The translations under genes were made by a program, and so were the position numbers. Below are positions 6,201-21,560 of a DNA stretch of 21,560 bases, in pieces. Position 1 is the stretch's first letter. Every line of letters begins with the position of its first letter. Origin of the DNA: a virus; IMG/VR virus record IMGVR_UViG_3300030389_004093, positions 1-21,560 of that record; one strand, given 5' to 3'. The notes below the pieces were generated by a model. The model was not told the origin of the DNA and did not search any database. It saw only the letters and a list, made by a program, of their open reading frames with translations.

Positions 6201-6266
6201 AATAATTTCCTTTTATTTTATATTAATACATTTTTGAGTCAAAATAAATATAACACCAAATTAACT
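6201..6266 (-). promoter_or_regulatory. Longest intergenic gap; candidate promoter ahead of the fibre gene run
   Basis: This 66-base AT-rich gap separates the methyltransferase-like gene from the small Ig-domain gene, where all other nearby junctions are 3-12 bases or overlaps. On the minus strand it holds TTGACT (6242-6237), then 16 bases, then TAAAAT (6220-6215), a fair sigma-70-like pair. The overlapping TATAAAATA (6222-6214) loosely resembles a T4 late element (TATAAATA). AAGGA at 6212-6208 is the ribosome site. A start of transcription about 7 bases after the -10 would fall on the ribosome site, which counts against a classical promoter. I see no clear hairpin terminator. Confidence 0.3.
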
Positions 6267-6815
6267 TTATACCGTAGATTCTACTTCGGTTTTAGGTTGC
6301 TTTGGCGTCTTAGCTGTTTTTTGTCTTTTTGTCGGAGTAACCTTTTCTTCTGTCTTTGACTTTGTTACTGTTCTTTTTGGTGCTTGCAATTTGGTTACTG
6401 TAAATTTTTGATCTTCATAACAAACAACCGTTACATCTCTTGTTTGTGCTTTTTTTATTCTATCAATAAAAATATTAGATGGAATATCTCTATGTACATA
6501 AATAAAATCAAAATCGTTGGTAAAATGTTTATCAAATAATTCTACTAAATCTGGCCCTGTATATCTATCAATAAAATTCATAGAGTTTATTCTTTTATGG
6601 TCATCAATATCGGGACTTACAAATTGATCATAGTCAATAGTGGTTACATCATTAATATACCCACCTAATAAAAGTGTAACATATCCGGCATATGTTCCTA
6701 CTTCAAAGGCTTTACTACACTTTGGTGTTTCCTTTTCTAGCAATCTATCCAACTCTTCTATTTTTTCTTGATCAAGTTGTTTTAAGTTTGAAATAAATTT
6801 ATAGTTATAACTCAT
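6267..6815 (-). CDS. SAM-dependent methyltransferase-like protein with Lys/Pro/Thr-rich tail (182 aa)
   Basis: Residues about 30-135 resemble a class I Rossmann methyltransferase of the Methyltransf_24 kind. AFEVGTYAGYVTLLLGG (36-52) fits motif I, VTTIDYD (57-63) ends in the acidic residues expected of the ribose-binding strand, and FDFIYVHRDIPSNIFIDRI (102-120) fits the later strand motif, followed by VTVVCYED. The motif I glycine pattern is E-V-G-T-Y-A-G rather than the classical G-x-G-x-G, so activity is uncertain. Residues about 141-177 form a basic low-complexity tail rich in Lys, Thr and Pro with acidic residues mixed in, likely disordered. It could contact nucleic acid or an acidic surface. 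The gene lies 12 bases downstream of the big wedge gene, with a strong AAGGAG ribosome site 8 bases before the ATG at 6815. The substrate is unknown; virion proteins or host components are both possible. It could also be a catalytically dead structural relative. Confidence 0.6.
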   Translation of the reverse strand: MSYNYKFISNLKQLDQEKIEELDRLLEKETPKCSKAFEVGTYAGYVTLLLGGYINDVTTIDYDQFVSPDIDDHKRINSMNFIDRYTGPDLVELFDKHFTNDFDFIYVHRDIPSNIFIDRIKKAQTRDVTVVCYEDQKFTVTKLQAPKRTVTKSKTEEKVTPTKRQKTAKTPKQPKTEVESTV

Positions 6816-6827
6816 ACTATTAACTCC

Positions 6828-9800
6828 TTATGAAGTAACTTTTTCGCCACCTTGATTTTCAATTTCTCTAATAAGGTTTTGATCTCTTGTAGAATCACTG
6901 TTTATAGCAACTCTAACTATTTGTGTATCGTTGTTAAAGAGATTTACTATTCTTATAGGTACTACGCCTAATGAGCCAGAAACTGTATCGTTTACTATAT
7001 CTTGACCAATTGATCTGCTTGTATTTATCGCAGTCAAGGCCCTTACTACATCTGCTAGTTGTAACTCAAATTCAACTTCTGGCGTTTCTAATGTAGTTGT
7101 AAAAGTAGAATCTTTATCTTTTATTAGTCTGCCCTTACCTTGAGATATATTACCAACTGTTGCCTCAAACAAGTTCGTCCCATCAGCAGAAGTTGGAAAC
7201 TCAAATCTTAAGCCTGGCTGATCAGTTTTAAATGAACGACCCTTTGTTAATAATCTTGCACTGCCCTTTATTATAGAAAGAACATTGCTTGATATTGGTG
7301 TAGCGGTTGGTGAAATCAAAACTTTATCTAATGTTACGTCAATAACTGAAACGGCACCAGCTGCGGGTTTTACTCTTACTGGTAAAACTCTTGCTATTCT
7401 TGTCGAAGAAAATCTTGGAACATTTGTTGAACTTTCTGTCGTTAAGTTAGGTATAGCTCTTGTTGCCGTAACAGACCTATCAACAAACTCTTGTAATCCA
7501 TCTCTGTACTTGAAGCCTTGAAAGGTTGCTGTTGTAGCGGCAGAAGATATAAAAGTTGTGTCATTAGCACTGTTACTACCCGCTGTGGAAAAATCTCCAC
7601 CAGTAAATCTATTACTAATTGTAAAACCAGTAACTGCGTGTTCTATAATAGATGGTGTTTGATTAAATGTTTCTCTACCCTCATCATCAGAAATGTGTCC
7701 TAAGTCACCACTAGTTGTAGGTGCACCAACGTAACCAGTAGATGTTGATTCTCTAAAACCAAACTGCCGACGCATTTTATTGCGTTCAAACATGGGGCTT
7801 TCTATGTATACACCCTCACCTATGATACTAGTCTTTGCTGGCAAAAACTGTTGTACAAAAGGAAACAATCCACCAAAAGTATCGCTAAAGTTGCCCATAC
7901 CTTTTATAAATGTGTTTAGGTCAACAAGACTTGATGTGTTTCCACTAGCGCCTGATACACCTGACCCTAAAACTCCGCCACCACTTTTTATAACTTCATT
8001 TATCAAGGCATCACCAGTAATACCTGCTTCTGGTGCTAAACCCCACTGACCCGTAATCTTATGCCACTCTTCTTTGAAGGCACCTTCATAACTCTTAGCG
8101 AATAAATCCTCTGGATCACCAAGTAGTTCTGATGGTGAAACATTGTGAACAGAGTTTTTGATGGCTCTGTTTACAGCGTTCATTGGGTTCATACTAAAAC
8201 TAATGTAACCTGTATCACGTATACTATCAGATGGATCGTCTTGTCTTATTCTATCATTGTCAGCAGCAAATCCAACGGGGAAGAATCTGTTTATCTTCTT
8301 CATGTTTTGGAATACACGATATCTTTTCTTATCGGGTATAGATTCAAAACCAACTGGTATAGCAGTGTTTGATGCTGTTGTAGAATCAACTATAAAATTA
8401 AAGTCACCAGTAAGAATCATATTCTCTTTGAGTTTATAGTGTGCTGATAAACTACCATAGTAAGCTCTGTTATCAACACTGTTGACTATATCTGTACCAG
8501 TTGATGATTGAAAAGAAATAGACTCAAAGTTTCTTGTATGTTGTTTTAGGTCTTCATCTTTTAAAGCAACATTCCATTTTCTTACTTGATGTATGTATCC
8601 AATAAATCTTGTTGAGCCAGTGCCAGGAAAGTAAGATGGGAACTGAGAATAACTTACTCCACCTATTGACATTGCTGCACCAACACCACCACTTGAGTCA
8701 AAGTTAGCTTTTGATATAGCACTACCACCATTACCGTTAGATGTTATTGCCTTATCCATTATAACGATGTCATTACCACCTGTAGGTGACGCGGACAATG
8801 CCATAGCGTATACACTTAGTGTATCACCAGAACGGCTTACAGCTACGTTTAGGAAGTTATCAGCACTACCACTACCTCTAACAAAACTAGATAAAGATGT
8901 AAGATCAGTTTGTGCTGATAGTGAAGCAGTAACATTTGATTTAAATGCAACCTGTCCACTAGCGTTCATCTCTATTCTGTAAAGTGGGTGAACAAATAAT
9001 GTATAACCAGATGAACCAAGACTTGCACCTGTAGCAGACACTCTCATCTGTAAAGTAAAATTATTGTTTGCAGGCATATCAAAAACTCTTGCTGAACCAG
9101 TAGCTGCAGCAGTTGTTTGAACATATGTAGAACCAGTAGCAAACAATACTGGTGTATCAACTTCTTCTATTTCTCTTATTTCAGTTGGTCTATGAAAAAC
9201 TGAGTATTCATTTGTTTTGAGAAAGTTTGAATCTACACCATATATTCTACCTATCGCCTCTAATGTTTCTCTTGTTCCCTTTGTTTTTAAGAGGTGCATA
9301 ATATTATTTAGAATACGATTTTGAATCTCATAATTTATTGATTGAGTAGTAAAACCCCCACTGCTTGAGTTGACTAAACTTTTTTCAAAACTGCTCCTCT
9401 TAGCGTTTTCAAAAACATTTACACCAAATTGTCTTAAAAAAGTAGGTATAAATTTATTAGGGACTCTATTTACTTTGCCGTAATCAATAACTTTTGAAAA
9501 TGGTATTTGATTAGCAAAAGACTTAATTTCATCTAACTCATCTCCAAAACCTGCTAACAATCTTTTGAGAACATCACTACTATCTTCACGGAATAAGACT
9601 TCTGGTAATAAGTTCTCTAATTTTTCTGATCTTGTTATTTGTTCAGAGGCAGTAATAGGATAATGTATTTCCGACTTAAAAGCACCTGTTGATGTTCCTA
9701 TTATCTCTGTTCCTGTACCGGCCGTTTGATCAATAACATTTAACTCTTCATCTTCATACAATATAGCACGAGCAGACAAAGACTCTATCATTCCTGTTTG

Positions 9801-10271
9801 ACTACCACTAATAGCGTTGACTGCGTTTCTATAAACAGCAATCAGTGGAACGTGCTCCCCATTTTCATTTACTGCAAATACAGTATTGTTCGCATTTGCA
9901 TTAACATTTCCAGATGAAGATCCTGTAACACCTAATCTATCTAAGACATAAGTAGTAAAACCATCAGCCTCTTTTCTAAACTTATCAACCTCAAATATAG
10001 CCTTTGGGCCGACGTTAGCGTTTAATAATACACTGTCAGCTGATAAGCCAGATAGACCGATTGGATACTTATCTATAATTTCTTTTCTAACGGACAGAAA
10101 CCGTCTTAGGGCGTTCCCGAAGAAAATATGTTGTGAGTAGTCATTATAATCCACCAAAGGTAACACACGGGATTTAGCACCTGTTATAGATAAATCTACG
10201 AGTGTTCCGCTAGAGCTGCCTAAACCAGATAGTGAAGCTACTAAACTTTCAAATGTAAAGCCGTCAGCCAT
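6828..10271 (-). CDS. Large baseplate wedge protein: P2 gpI-like region plus LamG-like domain (1147 aa)
   Basis: Size and position, two genes after gp6, fit the large wedge component (T4 gp7 is of similar length), but sequence identity to gp7 is not claimed. Residues about 215-350 resemble the P2 gpI tail-protein family: KLENLLPEVLFRED, LLAGFGDELDEIKSF, PNKFIPTFLRQFGVNVF and a conserved-looking LLKTKGTRETLEAIGRIYGV. Residues about 385-590 look LamG-like: NNFTLQMRVSATG, FLNVAVSRSGDTLSVYAMAL, AAMSIGGV and FIGYIHQVRKWNVALKDEDL. From about 690 comes a conserved-looking segment NPMNAVNRAIKNSVHNVSP with GDPEDLF, then a long C-terminal part (750-1147) I do not recognise. The start ATG at 10271 follows the upstream stop by 3 bases, with GGGA about 10 bases upstream. 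The likely role is wedge assembly linking the inner baseplate to fibres. Confidence 0.75.
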   Translation of the reverse strand: MADGFTFESLVASLSGLGSSSGTLVDLSITGAKSRVLPLVDYNDYSQHIFFGNALRRFLSVRKEIIDKYPIGLSGLSADSVLLNANVGPKAIFEVDKFRKEADGFTTYVLDRLGVTGSSSGNVNANANNTVFAVNENGEHVPLIAVYRNAVNAISGSQTGMIESLSARAILYEDEELNVIDQTAGTGTEIIGTSTGAFKSEIHYPITASEQITRSEKLENLLPEVLFREDSSDVLKRLLAGFGDELDEIKSFANQIPFSKVIDYGKVNRVPNKFIPTFLRQFGVNVFENAKRSSFEKSLVNSSSGGFTTQSINYEIQNRILNNIMHLLKTKGTRETLEAIGRIYGVDSNFLKTNEYSVFHRPTEIREIEEVDTPVLFATGSTYVQTTAAATGSARVFDMPANNNFTLQMRVSATGASLGSSGYTLFVHPLYRIEMNASGQVAFKSNVTASLSAQTDLTSLSSFVRGSGSADNFLNVAVSRSGDTLSVYAMALSASPTGGNDIVIMDKAITSNGNGGSAISKANFDSSGGVGAAMSIGGVSYSQFPSYFPGTGSTRFIGYIHQVRKWNVALKDEDLKQHTRNFESISFQSSTGTDIVNSVDNRAYYGSLSAHYKLKENMILTGDFNFIVDSTTASNTAIPVGFESIPDKKRYRVFQNMKKINRFFPVGFAADNDRIRQDDPSDSIRDTGYISFSMNPMNAVNRAIKNSVHNVSPSELLGDPEDLFAKSYEGAFKEEWHKITGQWGLAPEAGITGDALINEVIKSGGGVLGSGVSGASGNTSSLVDLNTFIKGMGNFSDTFGGLFPFVQQFLPAKTSIIGEGVYIESPMFERNKMRRQFGFRESTSTGYVGAPTTSGDLGHISDDEGRETFNQTPSIIEHAVTGFTISNRFTGGDFSTAGSNSANDTTFISSAATTATFQGFKYRDGLQEFVDRSVTATRAIPNLTTESSTNVPRFSSTRIARVLPVRVKPAAGAVSVIDVTLDKVLISPTATPISSNVLSIIKGSARLLTKGRSFKTDQPGLRFEFPTSADGTNLFEATVGNISQGKGRLIKDKDSTFTTTLETPEVEFELQLADVVRALTAINTSRSIGQDIVNDTVSGSLGVVPIRIVNLFNNDTQIVRVAINSDSTRDQNLIREIENQGGEKVTS

Positions 10272-10274
10272 TTG

Positions 10275-11813
10275 TTAATATCCCGCTGTGTAATCAATGT
10301 CGTAGATGTCACCACAAGCAAACTGCCATTTCTCTGGATAATCATAGACAAGCGTCTCACCCCTAACATTAAGTTTAAGAACTACCTTGTATCTTAGTCC
10401 CTCATATAGTAAGGTATTATCCAAATCAAAAAAGTTTCCTTCTGCATCGTAGGATAGTGCCTGTTCTGGCACTTCTACATCATTTGTCACTAACTCTCTT
10501 ATCTCAACTGTTCCACTCTTAATAATTGCTGTATTCAAAGCGGTAGATGTACCAGTTAGTGTTTGCCATTGTGTTTGATTGTTCTTTACAAAAACTCTAA
10601 TTCTTGCTTTAGTTGTTGGGTCATATTGGTCACTTAGGTTTGGTAGAGTTACAACGTGATTAGAAGTAACGTAATTACCATAACCAGAAGTTGGCAATAG
10701 ACAATCAAAAGAAAATGAATCTGTTCTGTATTCACCAGCAGTTGTCACCGTCCAACTATCAGTGAAAGATGTTGAAGATGATAAACCTAAGTTGATACCC
10801 GTTAGGTTTAGGTATCCAGCAGCATTTGTTGCTGAACCTATGTGTACTTTATAAATACCTTTTGAAAATCTTGAAGCGGTAACTGCCATTCCCGAAGCAG
10901 CATCCGTCAACATACCCACACCGTTAGCACTAAGGGTGACATGGCCAGGAAATGGACCTGTTCCATTTAGGTCTGTCAACTCGCCATCAATCAAACTATA
11001 ATAGAATAGGTTTGCTGTCTTAGAGAATAATAAGTTTTCTCTATTGTCTTTTATTGCTCCATCCCACTCTAACTCAAAGTATGGTCTTTTACGAGTGTTT
11101 GTTTCTCTACTGTAAAACTTCTTACTATAAAATGCAGTGCCAGATATAGATACAGCCTGTCCAGCAGATAATGCTTCTGGTGCATCTTTGGCTTCATAAG
11201 CATCTGTCATACGAATAAGAAATCCATGATCAGCACTACCACCATCTTCAATAGAGGTTCCAGTAGAAAAATTTAGATATGACTTGAAGTAGTCGGTCAC
11301 ATCCATTCGTAAGTCTTCTTCACCTAAGAATGATTGTGTAGCACTATTAGAATCATAAACTCTACTTGCAGCACCTATATATACTGAACCACCAGTTTGT
11401 CCATTGTTTATATTCCAAGCATTAGTATTTGTAGCACTCAGAGCGTTAGCAAATCCAGTGTTTGTGTAGTTATCATTATCAAGTCCTCTACCCTCCATCC
11501 ATGAAGCAGTAAGAGGGAAAGCTACCAAATCAAAGTTTACAGCTTGGTTGTCACTGTGTTTCACATTCTTTAGGTTGATAAAAGCAGAAACACCGCTATC
11601 GGTTCTTGGGTCGGGTATTCTACCGTTGTTTACAATATCGGCACTCAAAGAAGAGAGAGAAAACTTTATCAGTATTCTTGCATACTCTTTTCGTTGAGTA
11701 ACTTCATTTATATTATTCCATATTTCTAATATTGGTGTTTCACCAAAGTTAGATGTTACAGATGCTTCTGTTATCCAAGTGTCTTTATCGGCGTAAGCTC
11801 TGGCGATAGACAT
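10275..11813 (-). CDS. DNRLRE-like virion structural protein (512 aa)
   Basis: The N-terminal half resembles DNRLRE-type beta-sandwich domains: AYADKDTWITEASVTSNFG, then IWNNINEVTQRKEYARILIK, FSLSSL, FDLVAFPLTASWMEGRGLDN and, near residues 140-200, VYIGAASRVYD and EEDLRMDVTDYFKSYL. Such domains usually appear in secreted adhesins and some phage tail proteins. The second half (about 265-512) is beta-rich and unrecognised. The start codon overlaps the gp6 stop by one base (TAATG), so translation is probably coupled to gp6. A fixed place between gp6 and the large wedge protein suggests a baseplate component or a collar around the wedge. No catalytic motif or membrane segment is seen. The virion role is likely; the exact subunit is unknown. 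Confidence 0.72.
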   Translation of the reverse strand: MSIARAYADKDTWITEASVTSNFGETPILEIWNNINEVTQRKEYARILIKFSLSSLSADIVNNGRIPDPRTDSGVSAFINLKNVKHSDNQAVNFDLVAFPLTASWMEGRGLDNDNYTNTGFANALSATNTNAWNINNGQTGGSVYIGAASRVYDSNSATQSFLGEEDLRMDVTDYFKSYLNFSTGTSIEDGGSADHGFLIRMTDAYEAKDAPEALSAGQAVSISGTAFYSKKFYSRETNTRKRPYFELEWDGAIKDNRENLLFSKTANLFYYSLIDGELTDLNGTGPFPGHVTLSANGVGMLTDAASGMAVTASRFSKGIYKVHIGSATNAAGYLNLTGINLGLSSSTSFTDSWTVTTAGEYRTDSFSFDCLLPTSGYGNYVTSNHVVTLPNLSDQYDPTTKARIRVFVKNNQTQWQTLTGTSTALNTAIIKSGTVEIRELVTNDVEVPEQALSYDAEGNFFDLDNTLLYEGLRYKVVLKLNVRGETLVYDYPEKWQFACGDIYDIDYTAGY

Positions 11814-13633
11814 TATGCTGTTCTCCCTACTATATCAAAGTTTGGAAATTTTAGTTCCCAACAAACATCTTCTGGAAAACATAAAATACCATTTTTAGTA
11901 TTTGACTTAATATCAAAACTATAACCAGAATAAGTTCTATTATCTTGATTGGTGTTTATATTAGTAAACTTAAATTCAACAACAGACCTAACTTTTTCTA
12001 ATGCTTGAAGTCTAGCAATGTAGTTAGGAATAACAAGATTAGAACCAAAGTTTGTATTTTCGGCAATAAATATTCTTTTTAGTGAAATAAAACAATCTAC
12101 TAAGGCATCATTTGAATTAACATCAGCTGATGGAAGAATAGTAAAATCAATACCAATATTACACACCTTACCCTCTGTTATTTTTATAGTGTCAGAAAAT
12201 GACTTGAAATTTTTCAAGTATGTTTCTATGTTGTTTTTTAATGTGCCCGTCGCTGGGGTCAAAAATCCATTAGCGTTCCTTGCTATGGTAATTAACTCTA
12301 CACCTAATGCGTTTGCTGGATCTTTTCTTGCATAACTTCTAAAAACTGAACCAAACTCTGGTGGCATAGACAATACTCTTACTTGGTAGTCTTGTAATGT
12401 CACAGCTCTATTTTGAGAGTTAAAAAATTGCAATGCATTTTGTTTTATAGATGTTCTATTTTCTGCATCTGAACCACCAGTAGCTTGTTCAACATTTTCA
12501 ACTATTAGTGATGATAAAATTGTATTAGCCTGAGAGGCAGAAGCCGTAAGAAATGTTGAGTTATTAAAAGAAACTACTCTTGATGAAAATCTATTTAATG
12601 TTCTTGGTCCAACATTGGTTTCTGTTCCACCTCCATATCTATATTTTATATCTAAATTAACATCTCTTGGCGCAAAACCTAATCCTTTAGTTTTTAAAAA
12701 ATTAGACGAATCAACAACAGAAGGCGCAAATCCAGATGGCGCGCCCCTAAGACTTGGTGGTAATACAAAGTCTTCGGGGTTCGGTATTATTTCAGAATCT
12801 TCTAAATCTGTTGTTCCGGCACCAAATATTATAGAAGTTTCGCCTTCTGGCCCAACTTCAGTTGTAAACCTATATGGTATTTTTTTGTATTGTAATACAT
12901 ATTGAGCATCAGCGCTACTAGATCCATCGGTATTTAAGAAACCAGTAAAAACACTTCCTTGTGCCAAGTTGTCAACGTGAAAATATTCTTTACCGTCAGA
13001 AGAAGTTACAGACATAATTTCTGTTATTTCTCTATCAGGCATAGTTAATTTTAAAAATGGTATTGAATCACCGGCCCTATAAGAAAATGTTCTCGTTGAT
13101 CCAGCAATAGCAGATACACTTGTTATAGAGTATTGTGTTTGTGTAGGGCTTAATTGTTCCGTAACTCTATTTTCCGGCCTTGAAAAGTCTGCATCTACCA
13201 ATGTTTCAAATTGCACTGACGGTTCAAAATTAGTTACTACTTTTGTTCCCTTCTTTAAGGTAAACATTGAGTTGGCGGAAGTTGAGTTAGTAAATATTGC
13301 ACTTATAGATAAGTTTACAACAGCTGGCCGAGAAAACTTTGGTTGATATCCTAAATTTTGAGCAAGAGAAAAAATATTTTTATCCTCAACAGCTCTTTCT
13401 ATAAAGCCCTCATTAACCTGTCTGTCTATATAAAAAGACATTGAGTCACCAATGTAGGCTAACAATTCTATAATAGCCATACCACCAGATGCCTCATTAA
13501 AATCTTGAAAATCATTTGGAAAATATCTTTTCAGATAATCCATTAAGTCTGATTTTATAGAATCAAAATCTTTTGATAAATAATTGACATCAGCAATCTG
13601 TCTTGTGCTCTGTCTTGTTGATTGATAATTCAT
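11813..13633 (-). CDS. 6: Baseplate wedge protein gp6 (baseplate J-like)
   Basis: This is the wedge subunit whose homologues form the inner ring of contractile-tail baseplates and clamp neighbouring wedges. The N-terminal signature is clear: NYLSKDFDSIKSDLMDYL (17-34), then NEASGGMAIIELLAYIGD (46-63) and SFYIDRQVNEGFIERA (66-81). The J-like core shows at about 393-433 with RTSIKQNALQFFNSQNRAVT, LQDYQVRVLSMPPEFG and the following SVFRSYA strand. Length 606 compares with about 660 in T4. The start ATG at 13633 is 9 bases after the gp25 stop, with an AGAGAG ribosome site running on from that stop codon. The order gp25-gp6 and the one-base overlap with the next gene point to cotranslation of wedge parts. 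Confidence 0.92.
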   Translation of the reverse strand: MNYQSTRQSTRQIADVNYLSKDFDSIKSDLMDYLKRYFPNDFQDFNEASGGMAIIELLAYIGDSMSFYIDRQVNEGFIERAVEDKNIFSLAQNLGYQPKFSRPAVVNLSISAIFTNSTSANSMFTLKKGTKVVTNFEPSVQFETLVDADFSRPENRVTEQLSPTQTQYSITSVSAIAGSTRTFSYRAGDSIPFLKLTMPDREITEIMSVTSSDGKEYFHVDNLAQGSVFTGFLNTDGSSSADAQYVLQYKKIPYRFTTEVGPEGETSIIFGAGTTDLEDSEIIPNPEDFVLPPSLRGAPSGFAPSVVDSSNFLKTKGLGFAPRDVNLDIKYRYGGGTETNVGPRTLNRFSSRVVSFNNSTFLTASASQANTILSSLIVENVEQATGGSDAENRTSIKQNALQFFNSQNRAVTLQDYQVRVLSMPPEFGSVFRSYARKDPANALGVELITIARNANGFLTPATGTLKNNIETYLKNFKSFSDTIKITEGKVCNIGIDFTILPSADVNSNDALVDCFISLKRIFIAENTNFGSNLVIPNYIARLQALEKVRSVVEFKFTNINTNQDNRTYSGYSFDIKSNTKNGILCFPEDVCWELKFPNFDIVGRTA

Positions 13634-13642
13634 TTATGCTCT

Positions 13643-14059
13643 CTATGTTGGTGCGTTTTGAAATGGTAATTGAATAGAGTCCGTAATACCAGCAGCATTT
13701 AATAGTGTGTAAGTCATGTTTACTAAAATATCATTTTCATTTATGTTTGTTCCGATAGGTGGGTTGTCTGTTGTAAAAATTTCTATGCTATCCATTCTTA
13801 CGAAAGGCATCCAGCTTTCAAGAGCGTCTCGTATTTCAGCTCCTATTCTCGCTTCCATTTCATTCTTTTTTATCGGCTCAAACAATTCACCCAGTAATAT
13901 TGGTATATTTGTCCCTATTGTTGGATTAATGACCCTCTCACCCTTCTTGGTTAGTAAAAGTATTTTTATATCCTCTCTTACCGCATCTAATGTTGTGTTG
14001 TTCATTTCAAAGAAACCCTTACGAAAAGCTCGTAATGGAAATTTTAAATTAACACCCAT
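13643..14059 (-). CDS. 25: Baseplate wedge protein gp25 (GPW/gp25 family)
   Basis: At 138 residues it has the usual length of the family. The diagnostic pattern is present: DAVREDIKILLLTKKGERVINP (25-46, split here at the conserved GER), TIGTNIPILLGELFEP (47-62), EARIGAEIRDALESWMP (69-85) and a closing beta-hairpin with INENDILVNMTYTL. gp25 joins the wedge core next to gp6 and contributes to tail-sheath nucleation in contractile systems. The start at 14059 is 10 bases after the spike gene stop. The stop itself is part of the TAAGAG ribosome site. Nothing appears missing or broken. Confidence 0.93.
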   Translation of the reverse strand: MGVNLKFPLRAFRKGFFEMNNTTLDAVREDIKILLLTKKGERVINPTIGTNIPILLGELFEPIKKNEMEARIGAEIRDALESWMPFVRMDSIEIFTTDNPPIGTNINENDILVNMTYTLLNAAGITDSIQLPFQNAPT

Positions 14060-14069
14060 ATCATTTCTC

Positions 14070-15566
14070 TTAGTTTAAAAAATTTCTGTTACTTAAGTGT
14101 TGTGATAAACTATTTGTTAGACTAAGGAATCTATTTCTAATTTTATCAAATTTAACTTTTAATGAATTTATATTGTTTTGTACATCAGTAGTTTTTGAAT
14201 CAGTTTCTATTGGCACTGTCATACGGGGATTACTAGAACCACCTATGTTTATATCATCAAATTTTATTGTTCTCCTAAAAGTTCTAGTTTTATAGCCTAA
14301 ATTAATTGTTCTATCAGGCATCGGGACAGTTATAAACTTTGATGGTATGGTTATTGTAGTTCCAGGCGCTCCTCTTGCTACTAACACACGTTCGGTTTTT
14401 GGTCCAACAGGAGTTCTAATTGTTCTAGTCTCATAAACATTACCACTGCCAGGCACTCTTACATTTTTTGCAGGGACAAAAATCCTTCTTGGTCGTTGAG
14501 GTTCAGTTCTAAAACCTAAATTAATAGTTTGTTTATCTACTATTGTTTTGTCAGGAATGTTAATGTTTATTTCTGGTATTGCATGCTCGTGATCAATGTA
14601 AGAATTAAACAATTCTTGTACTACATCAAGTATACTTTGTGTTGTCTGAACAAACCCCCTCATCATTGTATCTTGTTTTTTAAAATATTCATTTAGTCTA
14701 TCACCTAAAACCATTTTATGCATTGTGCTTTCAGAGTCCTTTGTTGTTGATATGTTGTAAATTTCTTCCGCTATATTAACTATGAAATCTCTTCTTATGT
14801 CGGACTCGTCAGCTTCTTCAGTATTTTTTGTTAAAAAAGGTGATATGTCTGTCGGCCTTGCATCTGAAAAATGAACCGTTTTTGTTTTTGTTGACCCAAC
14901 CGTTCCTCTTGGGTTTCTTTGATATGGTCTATTTTCTAAAATACCCATTTCTAAAAGGCCTGGCTTATTAGAATATATTGGTAAAAATGTATTTCTTATA
15001 TAAGATCCACTTCTACCTTGTATTAATACATCACCAAGACTTAATGGCAATTGGAAAACTTTTTTACTTGACTTTGATGAAGGTTGTCTTGATTGACCAT
15101 TTACTTTTTTAACATCAAATCGCATACCATATCTTGTTATGGAATCTGGATTTCTCTTTTCGTTTTGTTCATTAGTTAATTTAGTGCTAACCACATCAGT
15201 ATCATTAACTCTACCCATCCAAAAACCTTTTGAGTTGTTTAGTGTTGTCTCCCTTACTACAAATACTTGTTCACCAACCTCTGGAACTGCAACTATAACA
15301 TTAGGCAGAAAGGGTGGATACCAACGGGGCGGTTCGTTTTCTGGACTATCACTACTAACATCTTCTCCTATAATTCTTGCGTTTATAGAAAATTGTGGAA
15401 GATTAGCGCTACCTTGTGGATGCACATCAGTGCCTAATTTTACACTTATTACAATTGCTCTATTCAGAATGAATAGTTCTGGCTTTTTCCACCCAAGAGC
15501 GTTTGCATATAAATCATCTTCATAACTACCCGATGCAAACAAATTCTCCATTGTTGGTCTATTCAT
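14070..15566 (-). CDS. gp5-like baseplate spike protein without visible lysozyme domain (498 aa)
   Basis: Residues about 50-125 fit the OB-fold of gp5/VgrG-type spikes: LPNVIVAVPEVGEQVFVVRE followed by FWMGRVND. LSLGDVLIQGRSGSYIR (175-191) matches a motif I associate with T4-like marine phage spike proteins. Residues 285-330 (MVLGDRLNEYFKK, ILDVVQELFNSYIDHEHAIP) resemble the usual ending of the family, yet 170 residues follow. That extension holds two related segments, KQTINLGFRT (345-354) and DRTINLGYKT (418-427), each followed by an Arg-rich stretch. No lysozyme motif is seen between OB-fold and C-terminus, unlike T4 gp5. The predicted role is the central spike or membrane-puncturing hub cap. 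The start at 15566 overlaps the upstream small gene by 8 bases; a GGA lies about 9 bases before the ATG. Confidence 0.75.
   Translation of the reverse strand: MNRPTMENLFASGSYEDDLYANALGWKKPELFILNRAIVISVKLGTDVHPQGSANLPQFSINARIIGEDVSSDSPENEPPRWYPPFLPNVIVAVPEVGEQVFVVRETTLNNSKGFWMGRVNDTDVVSTKLTNEQNEKRNPDSITRYGMRFDVKKVNGQSRQPSSKSSKKVFQLPLSLGDVLIQGRSGSYIRNTFLPIYSNKPGLLEMGILENRPYQRNPRGTVGSTKTKTVHFSDARPTDISPFLTKNTEEADESDIRRDFIVNIAEEIYNISTTKDSESTMHKMVLGDRLNEYFKKQDTMMRGFVQTTQSILDVVQELFNSYIDHEHAIPEININIPDKTIVDKQTINLGFRTEPQRPRRIFVPAKNVRVPGSGNVYETRTIRTPVGPKTERVLVARGAPGTTITIPSKFITVPMPDRTINLGYKTRTFRRTIKFDDINIGGSSNPRMTVPIETDSKTTDVQNNINSLKVKFDKIRNRFLSLTNSLSQHLSNRNFLN
14271..14540 (-). repeat. Two-copy internal repeat in the spike C-terminal extension
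   Basis: Two copies of the protein pattern xTINLG(F/Y)(R/K)T lie 73 residues apart (DNA about 14505-14528 and 14286-14309), and 19 of the 24 or so bases look the same by eye. Both are preceded by an I-x-I/V-P-(D/M) segment and followed by Arg-rich sequence. This suggests an internally duplicated beta-structure added to the spike. Confidence 0.5.
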
Positions 15567-15768
15567 TTTCTTTTTCCACTGGCTTTATTTTTATATTTCT
15601 TTTTTTTAATTCTGACTCTATTTCATGTAGATCATTTCTAACGCCTATATATTTTTTTCTTAAAAAATCCATAATTGTTATTTGATCTTCGTAAACCTGC
15701 AAACCATCTACATATAATTTACCAATTTCTTCGTCAGATAGTTTTGAAAAATCAATTAATGAAGTCAT
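15559..15768 (-). CDS. Small helical protein overlapping the late sigma gene (69 aa)
   Basis: I do not recognise this protein. It is charged and probably helical: an acidic N-terminal third (LIDFSKLSDEEIGKLYVDGL), a middle with ITIMDFLRKKYIGV, and a likely coiled-coil stretch NDLHEIESELKKRNIKI before a Lys/Glu tail. The ATG at 15768 lies inside the last codons of the sigma gene (17-base overlap) with no good ribosome site, so translation is probably coupled to the sigma factor. Its end overlaps the spike start by 8 bases. Tight coupling on both sides favours a real gene. One possibility is a sigma partner comparable in role to the T4 coactivator gp33, but there is no sequence evidence for this; a small baseplate or chaperone protein is equally possible. 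Confidence 0.65.
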   Translation of the reverse strand: MTSLIDFSKLSDEEIGKLYVDGLQVYEDQITIMDFLRKKYIGVRNDLHEIESELKKRNIKIKPVEKENE

Positions 15769-16405
15769 CTTTTAAAACCACATAACTTGTTTTTATCTTT
15801 TTTATAGACTTTGTTATCTTCCTACTTGGAAGATCAGTTGCTTCTCTTACATACATATACAATTGTTTCTTATTATAAATATTTAGCTTGTGATAGTTTT
15901 TGAGTATTTCGTTGATAATATTTAGAACTGCTCTATCATCTTTGTTCATGGTTTCATCAACCATCAAGTCATCAAAGTGTTCTATAACAACACCAATGAA
16001 GGCAACATCTTCTTCTTCTTTGTTACCATCATGGTAACCTTCCATACTTTTATCGTAAATAATAGTGTCTTCGTTTTCACTATCAACAAACACTTGGCGT
16101 TTAGCTAAGTTAGCTTGTTGTATTAACCAATTTTTTACAATCATTCCAAAGTATGAAAATGATTTCTTACCACTAGTATGATCAAATTTGTGGATTTTTT
16201 CATAGAGGTGGGCCATTGCTTCGTGCTCAATGTGTCGATAGTCAGACAAGATTTTATTGAAATTGTATGTGTAGTAAATGTTTTCTATTAGCTTTTTGAA
16301 AGCTGGATAAATTATATCTTTATAAACCTTGTGCCTATCGTGCACACTTATGTCACTATTAAAATAAACAATGGCCTGTTCTTGGTCAGCGCCCCAATAT
16401 TTCAT
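15752..16405 (-). CDS. 55: T4 gp55-like late-transcription sigma factor (217 aa)
   Basis: gp55-type sigma factors bind host RNA polymerase and, with the sliding clamp and a coactivator, recognise short late promoters. Residues about 24-100 resemble sigma-70 region 2: RHKVYKDIIYPAFKKLIENI, HEAMAHLYEKIHKFDHTSGK and KSFSYFGMIVKNWLIQQANL, the last being the most typical block. An acidic linker (108-150, with DGNKEEEDVAF) follows. The C-terminal REATDLPSRKITKSIKKIKTSY resembles a helix-turn-helix ending, and the tail finishes with LKDDFIN. Length 217 compares with 185 in T4 gp55. The ATG at 16405 has an AAAGG ribosome site and follows a 60-base gap. In T4 this gene is not within the baseplate cluster, so its place between hub and spike genes is unusual. 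A sigma factor is very likely; assignment to the late class rests on family resemblance. Confidence 0.82.
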   Translation of the reverse strand: MKYWGADQEQAIVYFNSDISVHDRHKVYKDIIYPAFKKLIENIYYTYNFNKILSDYRHIEHEAMAHLYEKIHKFDHTSGKKSFSYFGMIVKNWLIQQANLAKRQVFVDSENEDTIIYDKSMEGYHDGNKEEEDVAFIGVVIEHFDDLMVDETMNKDDRAVLNIINEILKNYHKLNIYNKKQLYMYVREATDLPSRKITKSIKKIKTSYVVLKDDFIN

Positions 16406-16465
16406 AGTATACCTTTCATTTACATTTACACAATATTTTAATAATAATGTTGTTTTTTCTATACT
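16406..16465 (-). promoter_or_regulatory. 60-base AT-rich gap upstream of the sigma gene
   Basis: This is the second-longest gap in the window. The minus strand reads A/T-rich with ATTATTATTAAAATATTG near the centre and an AAAGG ribosome site 7 bases before the sigma ATG. No good -35 element and no exact TATAAATA late motif are present, and I see no hairpin followed by a T run. It might hold a promoter for the sigma factor, but the sequence gives only composition as support. Confidence 0.2.
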
Positions 16466-19400
16466 TTAATTATTTCTGTTATCCAATCTTGTTGCTTCAA
16501 GAACAATTTCTTGAAAATTTATAGGATCTATTGTAGCGTCACCTTTATTGCCATAATCTAGTCTCATACTCTTATTTATTTCAGCAAGTCTTTCAAAACT
16601 ACCAACACCCCTATAAGCCAAAGGATTCCTTTCCGGCCTATTTTCAGTATATTCTACTAATTTACACTCTATCGTTGTTGTAAAAGTCGTTGGGGTAACA
16701 CTCTCATTTACACTACTTATTACATATAGACCTTCAACACCACTTAACAAACCTTTCAAATAAATGTAGTTGAAAACATTAAGGTTTGTCGTGCCATGGA
16801 TAGTCAAAGTTACAGTGCGTAAATAAGTGTTAAGTATGTTGCCATAAAAACGACTACCAGCAAATCTTTGATTTTCCTGTAAATTAGTAGTGTTTGTTGT
16901 TGCTTCGTTTAAACCATTGAAGTATTCATTTTGTAATGCTGTAATTTTTGAATAAAGAGCAACATCTTGAGACATAAGGTCTTCTATAAAACCTTGTGCA
17001 GCTTTTCTTATTATTGGATCAGATTGATTTGTTAAAATTTCTGTAAGGTTATTTTGACCCGCTTCTGTTACTTTACCAAAAGTAGAACTTTTAGGATCAC
17101 TATCTATTATTTGTAACTCTTTCAAAACTTCTTTACCACCAACTGGACCTTTATTAATTATATCTACTATGTCATTAAGTAAACCACTGGACTCTAATTT
17201 TCCACTTATTACATTACCTATGTCTACTGAAACACCACCCATTACAGTTGGTAATCTAAAAGTAGCAAACGCGTTTGCATCTATTTTAGAGGACATTTGA
17301 AAGTTCTCCACAAGAGAATCACCTGTACCAAAATTACAAACCATAACTAAGTTTGATTTTAAATAATCTCCTTCACCCGTTCTTGCAGCATTGCCTCTTG
17401 TCACTGATCTTCTAAATGAATCAGCGCCAATGTCACCACTGCTGGTAAGTTTAGATACTTCTATTTCACTAAAAACTTCTTGTATTACTCCATCTTCGTT
17501 TATTGCATTAACAAAAATTTCTATGTAAGATGAGTCTAAACTATTTGGCCTCATTGATAACATAAGCTGAGGCATGGCATCAGAAGCAGCAGAAAGTAAT
17601 TTTTTTAACATGCTATGAGTTGGTGCACCACCTTCGGCTGTTAGTATTTGATCAACCGCTCCGATCTCTATAGGTATTTCATAAGTTGTTTTTATTTCTA
17701 ATGATTTAAAGGCTGAATCAAATTGTAGTGCACTCAATTGATTGAGTAAAGATGTTGCATTTTCTTTCACTCTGTTAAATAAAGGCAAATCTTTTTCTGG
17801 TACTTCACTTGGTATTCTTAGAAACTGTGATATTGTTGGAAAGGGCCTGCCTGTTCTTATCTCTCCTTGTGACCACTGGGCTGCAAACCCATCATTTCTG
17901 ATAAAATCAGTAAGAAAGATGCGCGGTTGTGGTACATTCTCAGGCATAAGATAGAAATCTGGGCCTTCTGCAGTTACTTTAGTCAAGAACTCGGATTCGT
18001 CTGTATTAAGCATATAACTCTGTACGGCTTGCCGTGTCCCAGCTTGTTTGGCTGGATCTACAGAATATACGCCCGGCCTAATAACAGGCCCATCTTCAAC
18101 GTCATTAGAATCTCCCATAATAGGAAAAGGTATGGCGAAATAAAATTTTCCCACTTCGTTGGTCGCCTGTCTTCTGACAGTCTCTCCATTATCATTTCCT
18201 CCACCGTATATACTCGCTAAAAAATTTTTAAAACCAATCCCGTCTGAAGGTATGCCAGTTTCTATACCAAAAAGATCCCCACTACTTATATAGTCCTCAA
18301 CTCCAGTATTTTCAAAAGAGAAAGCACCTTGTTCTGCTAAATCTTCTACACGTGCTAACATGTATCTAGAAAAGTCTAGCCCCCAATTAACAGCTTCTTC
18401 AAGTATTGCTTCATCGGCAGCCTCTTCTCTCCTAGCAGATTGACCCTGTTCTATGGTATATTGTTCTCTGGTTCCCGAAACTGGGTCACCTCCTAAATTT
18501 ACTAATTGTTGATTTAGATCGTCCAATTGAGCCTGTAATTCACCTATCTCTCCGCCCTTTCCACTATCAGGCATCGGAATAGTAAAAGCTTTTTCGCCAG
18601 TTCTTGTTGGTAACGGCTTATAAAAAAACTTTACTCTACTATTTAATGTTTCACTTAAAGCCTCTAAAACAGAACCCAACCAATAATAAGTTGGCCTCAT
18701 TATAACATTATATTTTACATTATTTATTTCAACATCAATATTAGCTGTATTACCTAACGATCTTTGGTTAAGCAGTGATGATTGAGGTACATGTTCTTCT
18801 ACTGCAAGAGCTAATCTTTCGATTAATAATTTGTGTTCTGTTTTAGTTGAACTCTGGCTTAATATTGTTTTTATTTCTGGTATGTGGGCGGATACTCCAT
18901 CGCCATCTTTACGCATTAATTCTTGAGCTGGTTTGTCTACAAAATCTTGTAAAGGATCAGTTCTATCAGAAATCATAGTATATCCTGTTGTAAAAACGAA
19001 AACCTTTCTTGCTACAAAATAATCGTTTTCTCCCTCACCAATCTGAACGGGAGGATCGGACTCCGGCCCATTAATAACTATTTTCATATAATTATTAAGT
19101 GCGTTGGCCGAGCCTTCTGCATCGGGTGGATTAGCAAATTTATAAATATTTTCAGTTGTTACTGTATATCCATTTGGTATGTGTATACTTCCGACCAATA
19201 GCGGATTTGGTGGTGCTGAGGGATCATCTGGTTGCTCTCTTTTTGTAACCAAATCAACCCTTAACAATGTTTTATTTATCGTATTTGGATCAGTTGAAGA
19301 TAAAGGAAGATCGGGTGGTGCCGGTATTTCTGGAGCGGTAACTAAAATTGGTAAACTTAAAATTGATGTTTGTTGCATCGTCTGTTTGACATCTTGATTA

Positions 19401-21560
19401 AGTATTGTTGCCTCAGATGATAAATTAACAAAATTTAGATTTTTTTCATCGTTAAATCTTTCTAATATACGTCTTTGAAGTGGTTGACCAAAATCAGGCA
19501 TACCTTGTGGAGTAGGTGGTCCTGTAAATTTTGGAACAGCATCAGCTAATGCCGTATCTATTAGTTGACCTTTTGGCATACCTATAACAAAACCTAACAA
19601 AGTTTCTTCGTCGGCCTCTGATATTTCATCTTCTACACCGTCTACAATACGATGTTTACCGTTTACTTTATTAACAGTAAAGTTTTTTGGTGGAATAAAG
19701 GTAATATCGGGATCTCTTAAAGCATTGTGTAACAATACAGAATTGTAAACGTAGTTTCTTAAATCGCCACCACTCTTATAAGTAAAAGGATCAAAACTAT
19801 TAAATCTTTTATTAAGTTTATTTTCCTTGCTATCTGCAGCATCTCTATACTCTTTATCACCGAAGATATCATTCTGTTGCCCACCTCCTCTAAACTGAGC
19901 TTCTAGCAAGTTACTTATGCCGGACTGGCGTCTTCCGCTTGCACCGTAAAGCTGTATGAGATTAAATTGTATAAAACCCCTTTTTGTTGAATTTTCTGAC
20001 GCCTCAACAAAACTTCCATCTGATAGCTGGATTAGGCCGTCTTCGTCGATTGCTGATTCAAATTGTCTGTAGGCCTCAAGCACATCGCTTTTTGCAGCGC
20101 GCAGAAACTTATTGCCGAGTTTCGCGCCCCATTTACCAGTATCTCGATTCGGCCGAATAGGTTTAATATCAACAAATCGGGGATCTATTTCATCAATTAT
20201 ATAATCAGAAGCGTTTGTAAAATCTCCTAGAACTGGTAAAACAATTCTTGAACCATAGACCTTATTGCCCGAGTTCCACACCGATGTAGCTGGATCTTTA
20301 ATTTCTCCATAAAGAGCAAAAACATTTCTAACTACCGTTGCTGCGTGCAATACAGCTCTTTCTATTTTTATTTTTATTCTTCTGTATCTTTTAATGCTAT
20401 ATGTTTCTTCTGCGCCTGCAAAAAATGCATCTTGTAAGTCTCCGCCAGAAAAAAGATTTTTATCGTTTAGTTGTGCATAAGCGTTTCTTAATGCCGCTTC
20501 TGTTGCGGCAGATGATATAGCCTTTTCTCCATCGGAAAAATCAGCTTGACTCCACGGCACCCCATTAGCAAAAATAAACTTTTGTTTATCTTCTGGTTTT
20601 TTACCTCTTGCTCTATTTAATAAATTCTGTGGAACTTCTTTTAGCCCTTTTAACATTGTTGATGATACCATATCTGTAGATATGGCACTCATAAATGCTC
20701 CTTGACTGGTAAGAAATCTTAATTTACCTACAAGATGCCCAACATTATCAAACTCAAATGTAAAGTTATATAATTTTATTATAGATGCTGACCAAAAACC
20801 GCCGTTTCCTCCACCTATTATAACATCAGCGGGTAACGGATTATTTGGATCTAGTCGTGGAGGATATGAATTAGCATCAAAATCAGTATCTTTAATATTC
20901 CATCCATGAAAAAGTAAAAAAGTCGAATTTAATAAGAGTAATTTACTATATTCATATTGTTCATTTACTATTTCTGGATTAGGTAAGGTTAAACTTATGT
21001 CATACTTTATATTGTAAGAGCCGGAAGAGGCTCTACTTATTGCTACATCTGATAATCCTGGCTGTCCCTTATAAGACCTTACATCACTACTTGGATCAGT
21101 GTAGTCACTGTAAAAATCTGGTTGTGTTTGACTTGCTGTTGACCCTATTTTTGCTACTTTTACAATTTCATCAACGTCTGATGGTATAGGAGGAGGAATA
21201 GAAACACCATCATTGTCACTGCTTAAGTCACTAACAAATCTTACAGTTGATACTCTCTTTTTTATACCAGTAAATCTGTTTATGCCACCATTAAAAACAA
21301 TATCGTCATTATTAAAAACAACATATAAATCGGCAAAAGGAACTAATGAGCTTAGTTTTACATTGTTAGCAGATAGTTTACTATTCCATCCATTTACAAT
21401 ACTTCCATACATAGGATCATTAAGTAATTTATAAGTAGTACTGTTTTTTGATTGTAACAAAGGAGGATCAATTCCATCTATATCATTATCAAAATCGTCT
21501 TGACCTTGATCTTCGTGTGGATCAACTTGCCCGTCATCTGGTGAATTGGTGGACCCGTTG
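16466..21560 (-). CDS. Giant baseplate hub-like structural protein (5' end beyond window)
   Basis: The frame is open through to the right edge, giving at least 1697 residues, so the true start lies outside. A TTG at 21460 could be read as a start, but it has no need to be one: the 33 codons before it are in frame and encode an Asp/Gly-rich, probably disordered linker. Numbering from that TTG, residues about 150-270 carry SYNIKYDISLTLPNPEIVNE, LLLLNSTFLLFHGWN and IIKLYNFTFEFDNVGHLVG. A Pro-rich linker sits near 690-750 and a short coiled coil (EIGELQAQLDDLNQQLVNL) near 970. Residues about 1543-1625, with VTLTIHGTTNLNVFNYIYL, GLYVISSVNESVTPTTFTTT and IECKLVEY, resemble the final beta-domain of phage hub proteins of the gp27/gpD type. 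Hub identity fits its place upstream of the spike gene but is inferred. A tail-associated structural protein is safe. Confidence 0.7.
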   Translation of the reverse strand, partial: NGSTNSPDDGQVDPHEDQGQDDFDNDIDGIDPPLLQSKNSTTYKLLNDPMYGSIVNGWNSKLSANNVKLSSLVPFADLYVVFNNDDIVFNGGINRFTGIKKRVSTVRFVSDLSSDNDGVSIPPPIPSDVDEIVKVAKIGSTASQTQPDFYSDYTDPSSDVRSYKGQPGLSDVAISRASSGSYNIKYDISLTLPNPEIVNEQYEYSKLLLLNSTFLLFHGWNIKDTDFDANSYPPRLDPNNPLPADVIIGGGNGGFWSASIIKLYNFTFEFDNVGHLVGKLRFLTSQGAFMSAISTDMVSSTMLKGLKEVPQNLLNRARGKKPEDKQKFIFANGVPWSQADFSDGEKAISSAATEAALRNAYAQLNDKNLFSGGDLQDAFFAGAEETYSIKRYRRIKIKIERAVLHAATVVRNVFALYGEIKDPATSVWNSGNKVYGSRIVLPVLGDFTNASDYIIDEIDPRFVDIKPIRPNRDTGKWGAKLGNKFLRAAKSDVLEAYRQFESAIDEDGLIQLSDGSFVEASENSTKRGFIQFNLIQLYGASGRRQSGISNLLEAQFRGGGQQNDIFGDKEYRDAADSKENKLNKRFNSFDPFTYKSGGDLRNYVYNSVLLHNALRDPDITFIPPKNFTVNKVNGKHRIVDGVEDEISEADEETLLGFVIGMPKGQLIDTALADAVPKFTGPPTPQGMPDFGQPLQRRILERFNDEKNLNFVNLSSEATILNQDVKQTMQQTSILSLPILVTAPEIPAPPDLPLSSTDPNTINKTLLRVDLVTKREQPDDPSAPPNPLLVGSIHIPNGYTVTTENIYKFANPPDAEGSANALNNYMKIVINGPESDPPVQIGEGENDYFVARKVFVFTTGYTMISDRTDPLQDFVDKPAQELMRKDGDGVSAHIPEIKTILSQSSTKTEHKLLIERLALAVEEHVPQSSLLNQRSLGNTANIDVEINNVKYNVIMRPTYYWLGSVLEALSETLNSRVKFFYKPLPTRTGEKAFTIPMPDSGKGGEIGELQAQLDDLNQQLVNLGGDPVSGTREQYTIEQGQSARREEAADEAILEEAVNWGLDFSRYMLARVEDLAEQGAFSFENTGVEDYISSGDLFGIETGIPSDGIGFKNFLASIYGGGNDNGETVRRQATNEVGKFYFAIPFPIMGDSNDVEDGPVIRPGVYSVDPAKQAGTRQAVQSYMLNTDESEFLTKVTAEGPDFYLMPENVPQPRIFLTDFIRNDGFAAQWSQGEIRTGRPFPTISQFLRIPSEVPEKDLPLFNRVKENATSLLNQLSALQFDSAFKSLEIKTTYEIPIEIGAVDQILTAEGGAPTHSMLKKLLSAASDAMPQLMLSMRPNSLDSSYIEIFVNAINEDGVIQEVFSEIEVSKLTSSGDIGADSFRRSVTRGNAARTGEGDYLKSNLVMVCNFGTGDSLVENFQMSSKIDANAFATFRLPTVMGGVSVDIGNVISGKLESSGLLNDIVDIINKGPVGGKEVLKELQIIDSDPKSSTFGKVTEAGQNNLTEILTNQSDPIIRKAAQGFIEDLMSQDVALYSKITALQNEYFNGLNEATTNTTNLQENQRFAGSRFYGNILNTYLRTVTLTIHGTTNLNVFNYIYLKGLLSGVEGLYVISSVNESVTPTTFTTTIECKLVEYTENRPERNPLAYRGVGSFERLAEINKSMRLDYGNKGDATIDPINFQEIVLEATRLDNRNN

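Follow-up and report, generated by a model that had tools for sequence, protein, structure and literature searches.

Why should the gene for a gp55-like sigma factor lie among the tail and baseplate genes of a phage, and does the small gene that overlaps its end belong to the sigma factor or to the baseplate? We studied these questions in a stretch of viral DNA of 21,560 nt (IMG/VR record IMGVR_UViG_3300030389_004093, positions 1 to 21,560), called the window below, in which every gene is carried on the minus strand. Our best explanation, to which we assign a probability of roughly 60%, is that a gp55-like late sigma gene is held in front of a baseplate cassette and that the small protein is borne by the cassette.

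The late sigma-like gene (15752–16405, minus strand, as are all features given here) encodes 217 amino acids. It lies 60 nt behind a giant tail gene (16466–21559, with its 5' end beyond the window) and is followed by a gene for a 69-aa protein (15559–15768), a gene for a spike-like protein of 498 aa (14070–15566), a gp25-like baseplate wedge gene (13643–14059; Pfam GPW_gp25, 34.7 bits, cut-off 27.2) and a gp6-like baseplate wedge gene (11813–13633; phrog_219, E = 1 × 10−33). The overlaps are of 17 nt between the sigma gene and the small gene (15752–15768) and of 8 nt between the small gene and the spike-like gene (15559–15566). Both overlaps had been described in an earlier note on this DNA, and the ORF coordinates agree with them. 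The same order, from the giant gene to gp6, is kept in every contig of the window group that reaches that far.

The giant gene is a hub candidate by its position. It had no PHROG match, and no match was obtained for it as a hub or as the counterpart of gp33 or gp35 of Flavobacterium phage immuto. The spike-like gene is so labelled for its position and because its profile resembles that of its positional counterpart in immuto, the two having an OB-like N-terminal part in common; between the window and immuto groups, this part and a GD...QGR.G..IR stretch can be aligned (hhalign, E = 5 × 10−5). Two proteins of 1147 aa (6828–10271) and 512 aa (10275–11813) follow gp6 at a conserved position throughout the window group, and neither gave a convincing PHROG or Pfam match. 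A 182-aa protein among the tail genes (6267–6815) is weakly similar to the phage methyltransferase family phrog_15516 (E = 1.5 × 10−4).

We compared the sigma-like protein with known families by profile and by fold. Residues 25–150 of the window protein matched phrog_234, the late sigma transcription factor family (E = 3 × 10−4), and 11 of 24 family members matched it too (best E = 7 × 10−7). The family alignment was also compared with an alignment of nine gp55 sequences from T4-like phages (T4 and cyanophages), and the two matched over residues 25–113 (hhalign, E = 1.3 × 10−7, probability 94), a sigma region 2 part that lies at 16067–16333. The Pfam model Sigma70_r2 gave 13.9 bits for the window protein, below its 24-bit cut-off, and a weak match below the cut-off was found in most family members. 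The family profile had no match among PDB sequences.

The structure was predicted with intermediate confidence (pLDDT 79, pTM 0.49), its linker being disordered, and its fold matches in the PDB were nearly all sigma factors. The top match by VIA-align was T4 gp55 (7d7c_F, Z 11.0, 119 residues, rmsd 6.5), and region 2 of sigmaE (1or7) superposes on the model over 99 residues with an rmsd of 2.7 Å. It is thus well supported that the gene encodes a sigma factor, and its role is likely to be a late one. The earlier note had called the gene gp55-like and had made this depend on region 2 similarity in profile searches; such similarity is present in the profile searches, and in the predicted fold as well. 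In T4 gp55, contact with the clamp helices of the polymerase has been reported for residue D74 (PMC7892883). The acidic residue E62 of the window protein aligns with D74, and the immuto protein needs a one-residue gap there. One sigma homologue of 185 aa (L032:293–850) is short of about 31 residues in the linker that joins the region 2 part to the C-terminal domain.

This C-terminal domain (residues 150–217, 15755–15958) is helical, carries a conserved KK..Y..RE.T and is absent from gp55. Invariant or nearly invariant residues of the pattern KK..Y..RE..T are common to both the window and the immuto groups. T4 gp55 has a hydrophobic and acidic epitope at its C-terminus that binds the sliding clamp (PMC2988020); its tail is SPSLDFLYEAND, and the sigma family studied here has the conserved domain instead. 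The family tails end, for example, in KDDFIN or EDFIG after the helical domain, and inspection of these tails found no T4-like clamp-binding motif. Sequence comparisons of the C-terminal domain with sigma region 4, Pfam and PDB returned no credible match. VIA alignments of the whole model to several complete sigma chains cover residues 1–217, which hints that the domain may have a role like that of region 4. The four cyanophage gp55 proteins in our alignment (L042, L046, L048, L049) stop short of the position of the T4 clamp-binding tail.

The IMG/VR search found 36 close relatives, and a broader alignment confirmed at least 575 relatives among 600 candidate stretches. Bacterial and archaeal genome contigs were scanned as well and yielded no relative. 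We examined 136 loci. In 69 of them the sequence continued for over 6 kb beyond the sigma gene, and all 69 had gp25 and gp6 at 1.7–5.3 kb downstream of it. The group with this fixed order is a large one of T4-like phages, most of them uncultured. It includes marine contigs as well as an uncultured phage of 484 kb, Flavobacterium phage immuto and Microcystis phage Mel-JY01; in the latter three, the sigma gene was annotated as hypothetical or left unannotated.

The gene order of the immuto group is a phosphohydrolase, a gene of about 100 aa, the sigma gene, a gap of about 20–33 nt, a gene of about 120 aa, a spike-like gene, two more genes, gp25 and gp6. In most loci of this group, the ~100-aa gene (L001:11697–11990 and its homologues) overlaps the start of the sigma gene by 20–44 nt. 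Within the baseplate cluster of immuto we also found gp115 (L001:14189–15304), which is annotated as 'DNA repair ATPase RecN' and is probably a misannotated structural protein.

A TATTTAT element (consensus TATTTATAATAAA) was present in 74 of the 77 distinct gaps that follow the sigma stop codon in the immuto group, while shuffled sequences gave 3.7. In the complete immuto genome, 20 of 63 head and tail genes have this late-type motif at most 55 nt ahead of them, in most cases 18–38 nt from the start codon, and its sites include the terminase, portal, sheath, tube and tape measure genes. None of the 31 genes in the block closed by the sigma gene has it, and it precedes 7 of the 79 genes in the first 45 kb. 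Upstream of the unit that contains the sigma gene the motif is depleted (3 of 71, with 15.6 expected). We took the element as a promoter from its position and recurrence, and TATTTATAATAAA is the probable late promoter of the immuto group. Some TATTTATAATAAA sites in the immuto genome (L174, L175) or in the gaps after the sigma gene contain the TATAAATA of T4.

The window group has a different element. The gap between the giant tail gene and the sigma gene, about 49–100 nt long, holds a conserved TTATTAAAAT followed by TGTTACTATA or a similar sequence; in the window this promoter-like motif A reads TTATTAAAAT...TGTAAATGTAAAT (16418–16444) and does not match the PWM of the late motif. We looked for the TATTTAT late motif in the regions upstream of the window-group sigma genes and rejected it there (p-values 0.24–0.82). 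Apart from this gap, only one intergenic stretch of the window reaches 30 nt (6201–6266), and it contains TATTTAT and TATTAATAT before a 190-aa gene.

The earlier note had suggested that a late sigma gene inside a late structural operon would create positive feedback. Under such a reading, the sigma gene would belong to the late genes, share a late promoter with the tail operon and amplify its own expression after a small early supply. The window-group sigma gene does lie between tail genes on one strand, and by eye the 60-nt gap before it has no terminator. The TTATTAAAAT element also precedes two tail genes, the hub-like f17 (phrog_150) and the 190-aa gene, so a late class for this element is conceivable. 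However, the element does not score as the TATTTAT late motif, and in the sister group the motif follows the sigma gene and is lacking upstream of its unit. Moreover, gp55 counts as a middle protein in T4 (PMC6024815). The sequence evidence leans against a late promoter serving the sigma gene, and we consider such feedback unlikely, although it survives better than the other alternatives.

The small gene was analyzed separately. Its ORF is under purifying selection (dN/dS 0.03–0.28 in 11 pairs) and the gene order recurs, so its overlap with the sigma gene is more than a chance feature. The product is predicted to be a single helix of 45 residues. It had no phage relatives by tblastn, the PHROG and Pfam matches of the protein and its homologues were scattered and at chance level, and their alignment has no conserved stretch. 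Homology to the immuto-group protein in the same place, or to the ~100-aa protein before the sigma gene, was considered and was not detected.

Comparison of close relatives indicated which neighbor the small gene follows. Between the window and three loci (L008, L026, L036), the sigma proteins are 96–100% identical over the 97–130 residues present in these partial genes at contig ends, whereas identity is 32–33% for the small protein, 50–51% for the spike-like protein, 58–59% for gp25 and 72–73% for gp6. At the DNA level, identity in the swapped loci is 89–97% in the sigma gene, 52–68% from the sigma stop through the small and spike-like genes, low in gp25 and gp6, and 98% at the end of gp6. 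In L008 it is about 94% up to the sigma stop, where it drops to 58%, and it recovers to 98% where gp6 ends; the alignment puts the break at the stop codon itself. The exchange point thus lies at the sigma stop, within the overlap, and a block of about 3.9 kb with the small, spike-like, gp25 and gp6 genes (11813–15768 in the window) has been replaced between close relatives. A comparison of L017 with L020, both of them complete, gave a similar pattern, with identities of 96% for sigma, 37% for the small protein, 47% for the spike-like protein, 44% for gp25 and 54% for gp6.

Because the small gene is swapped with spike, gp25 and gp6 while sigma stays nearly identical, it moves with the cassette, and it seems to belong to the baseplate cassette and not to the sigma gene. 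Its conserved overlap then means that the start of the small gene is merely placed within the conserved end of the sigma gene. The protein is most likely a helper in the assembly or structure of the spike or baseplate.

The earlier note had instead suggested that the small protein could be a dedicated partner of sigma. It could be a gp33-like coactivator or a small anti-sigma factor, translationally coupled to the sigma gene. The two genes overlap or lie 1–5 nt apart in every window-group locus, the protein is small and helical, and its partial rank correlation with sigma, given spike, is still 0.31. However, it correlates more strongly with spike when sigma is given (0.50), and it shows no profile similarity to gp33 (phrog_254; hhalign, E = 0.78). 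The immuto-group protein at that place is unrelated by sequence and is separated from sigma by the late-type motif, so that it sits behind a putative promoter. Together with the cassette exchange, these results make a dedicated partner quite improbable. The exchange indicates that the small protein and sigma need not match closely, and binding between them may still occur. By its position, the ~100-aa protein of the immuto group is the better candidate for a partner of sigma.

The least probable alternative is that sigma is a middle-type factor, or one specific to the structural cluster, that serves the adjacent baseplate genes only, for its adjacency to the baseplate cassette is fixed across a very wide group, but TATTTAT also precedes the terminase and other head and tail genes listed above, and no second gp55-like gene was found in immuto by a gp55 profile that barely finds sigma in some relatives.

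We therefore return to the late sigma gene held before a baseplate cassette. The sigma factor would redirect host RNA polymerase to late genes, and its gene would be kept directly before the cassette of small, spike-like, gp25 and gp6 genes. In the immuto group, the sigma gene would end a non-late block and be expressed from another promoter. Since the late-type motif sits right after the sigma stop, the baseplate operon of this group appears to begin beside sigma, directly behind the gene of its putative activator. In the window group, sigma and cassette would be joined, and transcription from the conserved promoter-like element of sigma would continue through the cassette. The helical protein of 69 aa would serve this cassette, as a helper in spike or baseplate assembly.

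In T4, late transcription is coupled to the replication clamp, a textbook feature of this phage. We searched five relatives with long genomes for the T4 clamp Pfams (PF09116, PF02916) and for gp33 (phrog_254), and found no significant match. The only trace was an insignificant partial match to PF02916 (E = 0.011) in the 484-kb phage LR756508, and the gp45 Pfams did not match in immuto or Mel-JY01. As positive controls, T4 matched all three models and S-RIM8 matched PF09116 and phrog_254. The sensitivity of the gp45 and gp33 profiles is low here, since even the gp55 profile barely finds sigma in two of these genomes. Models of PCNA and of the bacterial beta clamp had no match in the five relatives either.

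Immuto encodes a family A DNA polymerase, a DnaB helicase and a DnaG primase. Because this replisome is not of the T4 type and the C-terminal domain replaces the clamp epitope, the data suggest that late transcription by this factor may be independent of the clamp. A fuller proposal, which we hold tentatively and judge to have less than an even chance, is that this widespread gp55-like lineage performs T4-type late transcription without clamp and gp33: the C-terminal domain would replace the clamp-binding tail and do the work of region 4 or gp33, and the factor would act on promoters of the TATTTATAATAAA type, the closest one forming part of the end of the sigma locus.

Cultured immuto combines a T4-like baseplate and capsid and a gp55-like sigma with a different replisome, so whether clamp coupling is ancestral or an add-on becomes directly testable. 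In addition, hundreds of 'hypothetical' proteins gain a likely role, Flavobacterium phages and their relatives gain a candidate late promoter, and the fixed sigma/baseplate junction is recognized as a site of baseplate cassette exchange. In the literature searched, whose coverage excludes most subscription journals, we found no report of the sigma–baseplate arrangement. Within the limits of these searches, three features are new: the fixed junction, the candidate late promoter and the exchange of the cassette.

Compared with known systems, the sigma family resembles T4 gp55 (phrog_234; 7d7c chain F) in its region 2-type core, by both profile and fold, and in being a phage-encoded factor that is expected to act with host RNA polymerase. 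The gene order is different. The earlier note had placed T4 gene 55 apart from the baseplate cluster and had proposed a comparison across marine T4-like phages; the T4 gene order confirms the former, since gene 55 lies beside a-gt and genes 46/47, and our comparison separates the 69 loci from both T4 and cyanophages. The four marine cyanophages examined (S-RIM8, S-CAM1, Sf-FS3, S-CAM7) are likewise marine T4-like phages with a gp55-like region 2, but their gp55 gene is followed by the recombination genes gp47 and gp46 and not by spike, gp25 and gp6. In Agrobacterium phage Atu_ph07 (L043:4527–12357), gp55 also adjoins gp47/gp46, and baseplate genes lie 1–7 kb off on the other strand.

T4 gp33 is mostly helical. 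The 69-aa protein is like this coactivator in being small and mostly helical, and differs from it in its profile and in moving with the baseplate cassette. Close systems are also gp118 of Flavobacterium phage immuto and WWT39502 of Microcystis phage Mel-JY01 ('hypothetical protein'), which belong to the same family, with 86–88% of the window protein covered. They hold the same place before spike, gp25 and gp6, and differ from the window in the ~100-aa gene that lies ahead of sigma and overlaps it.
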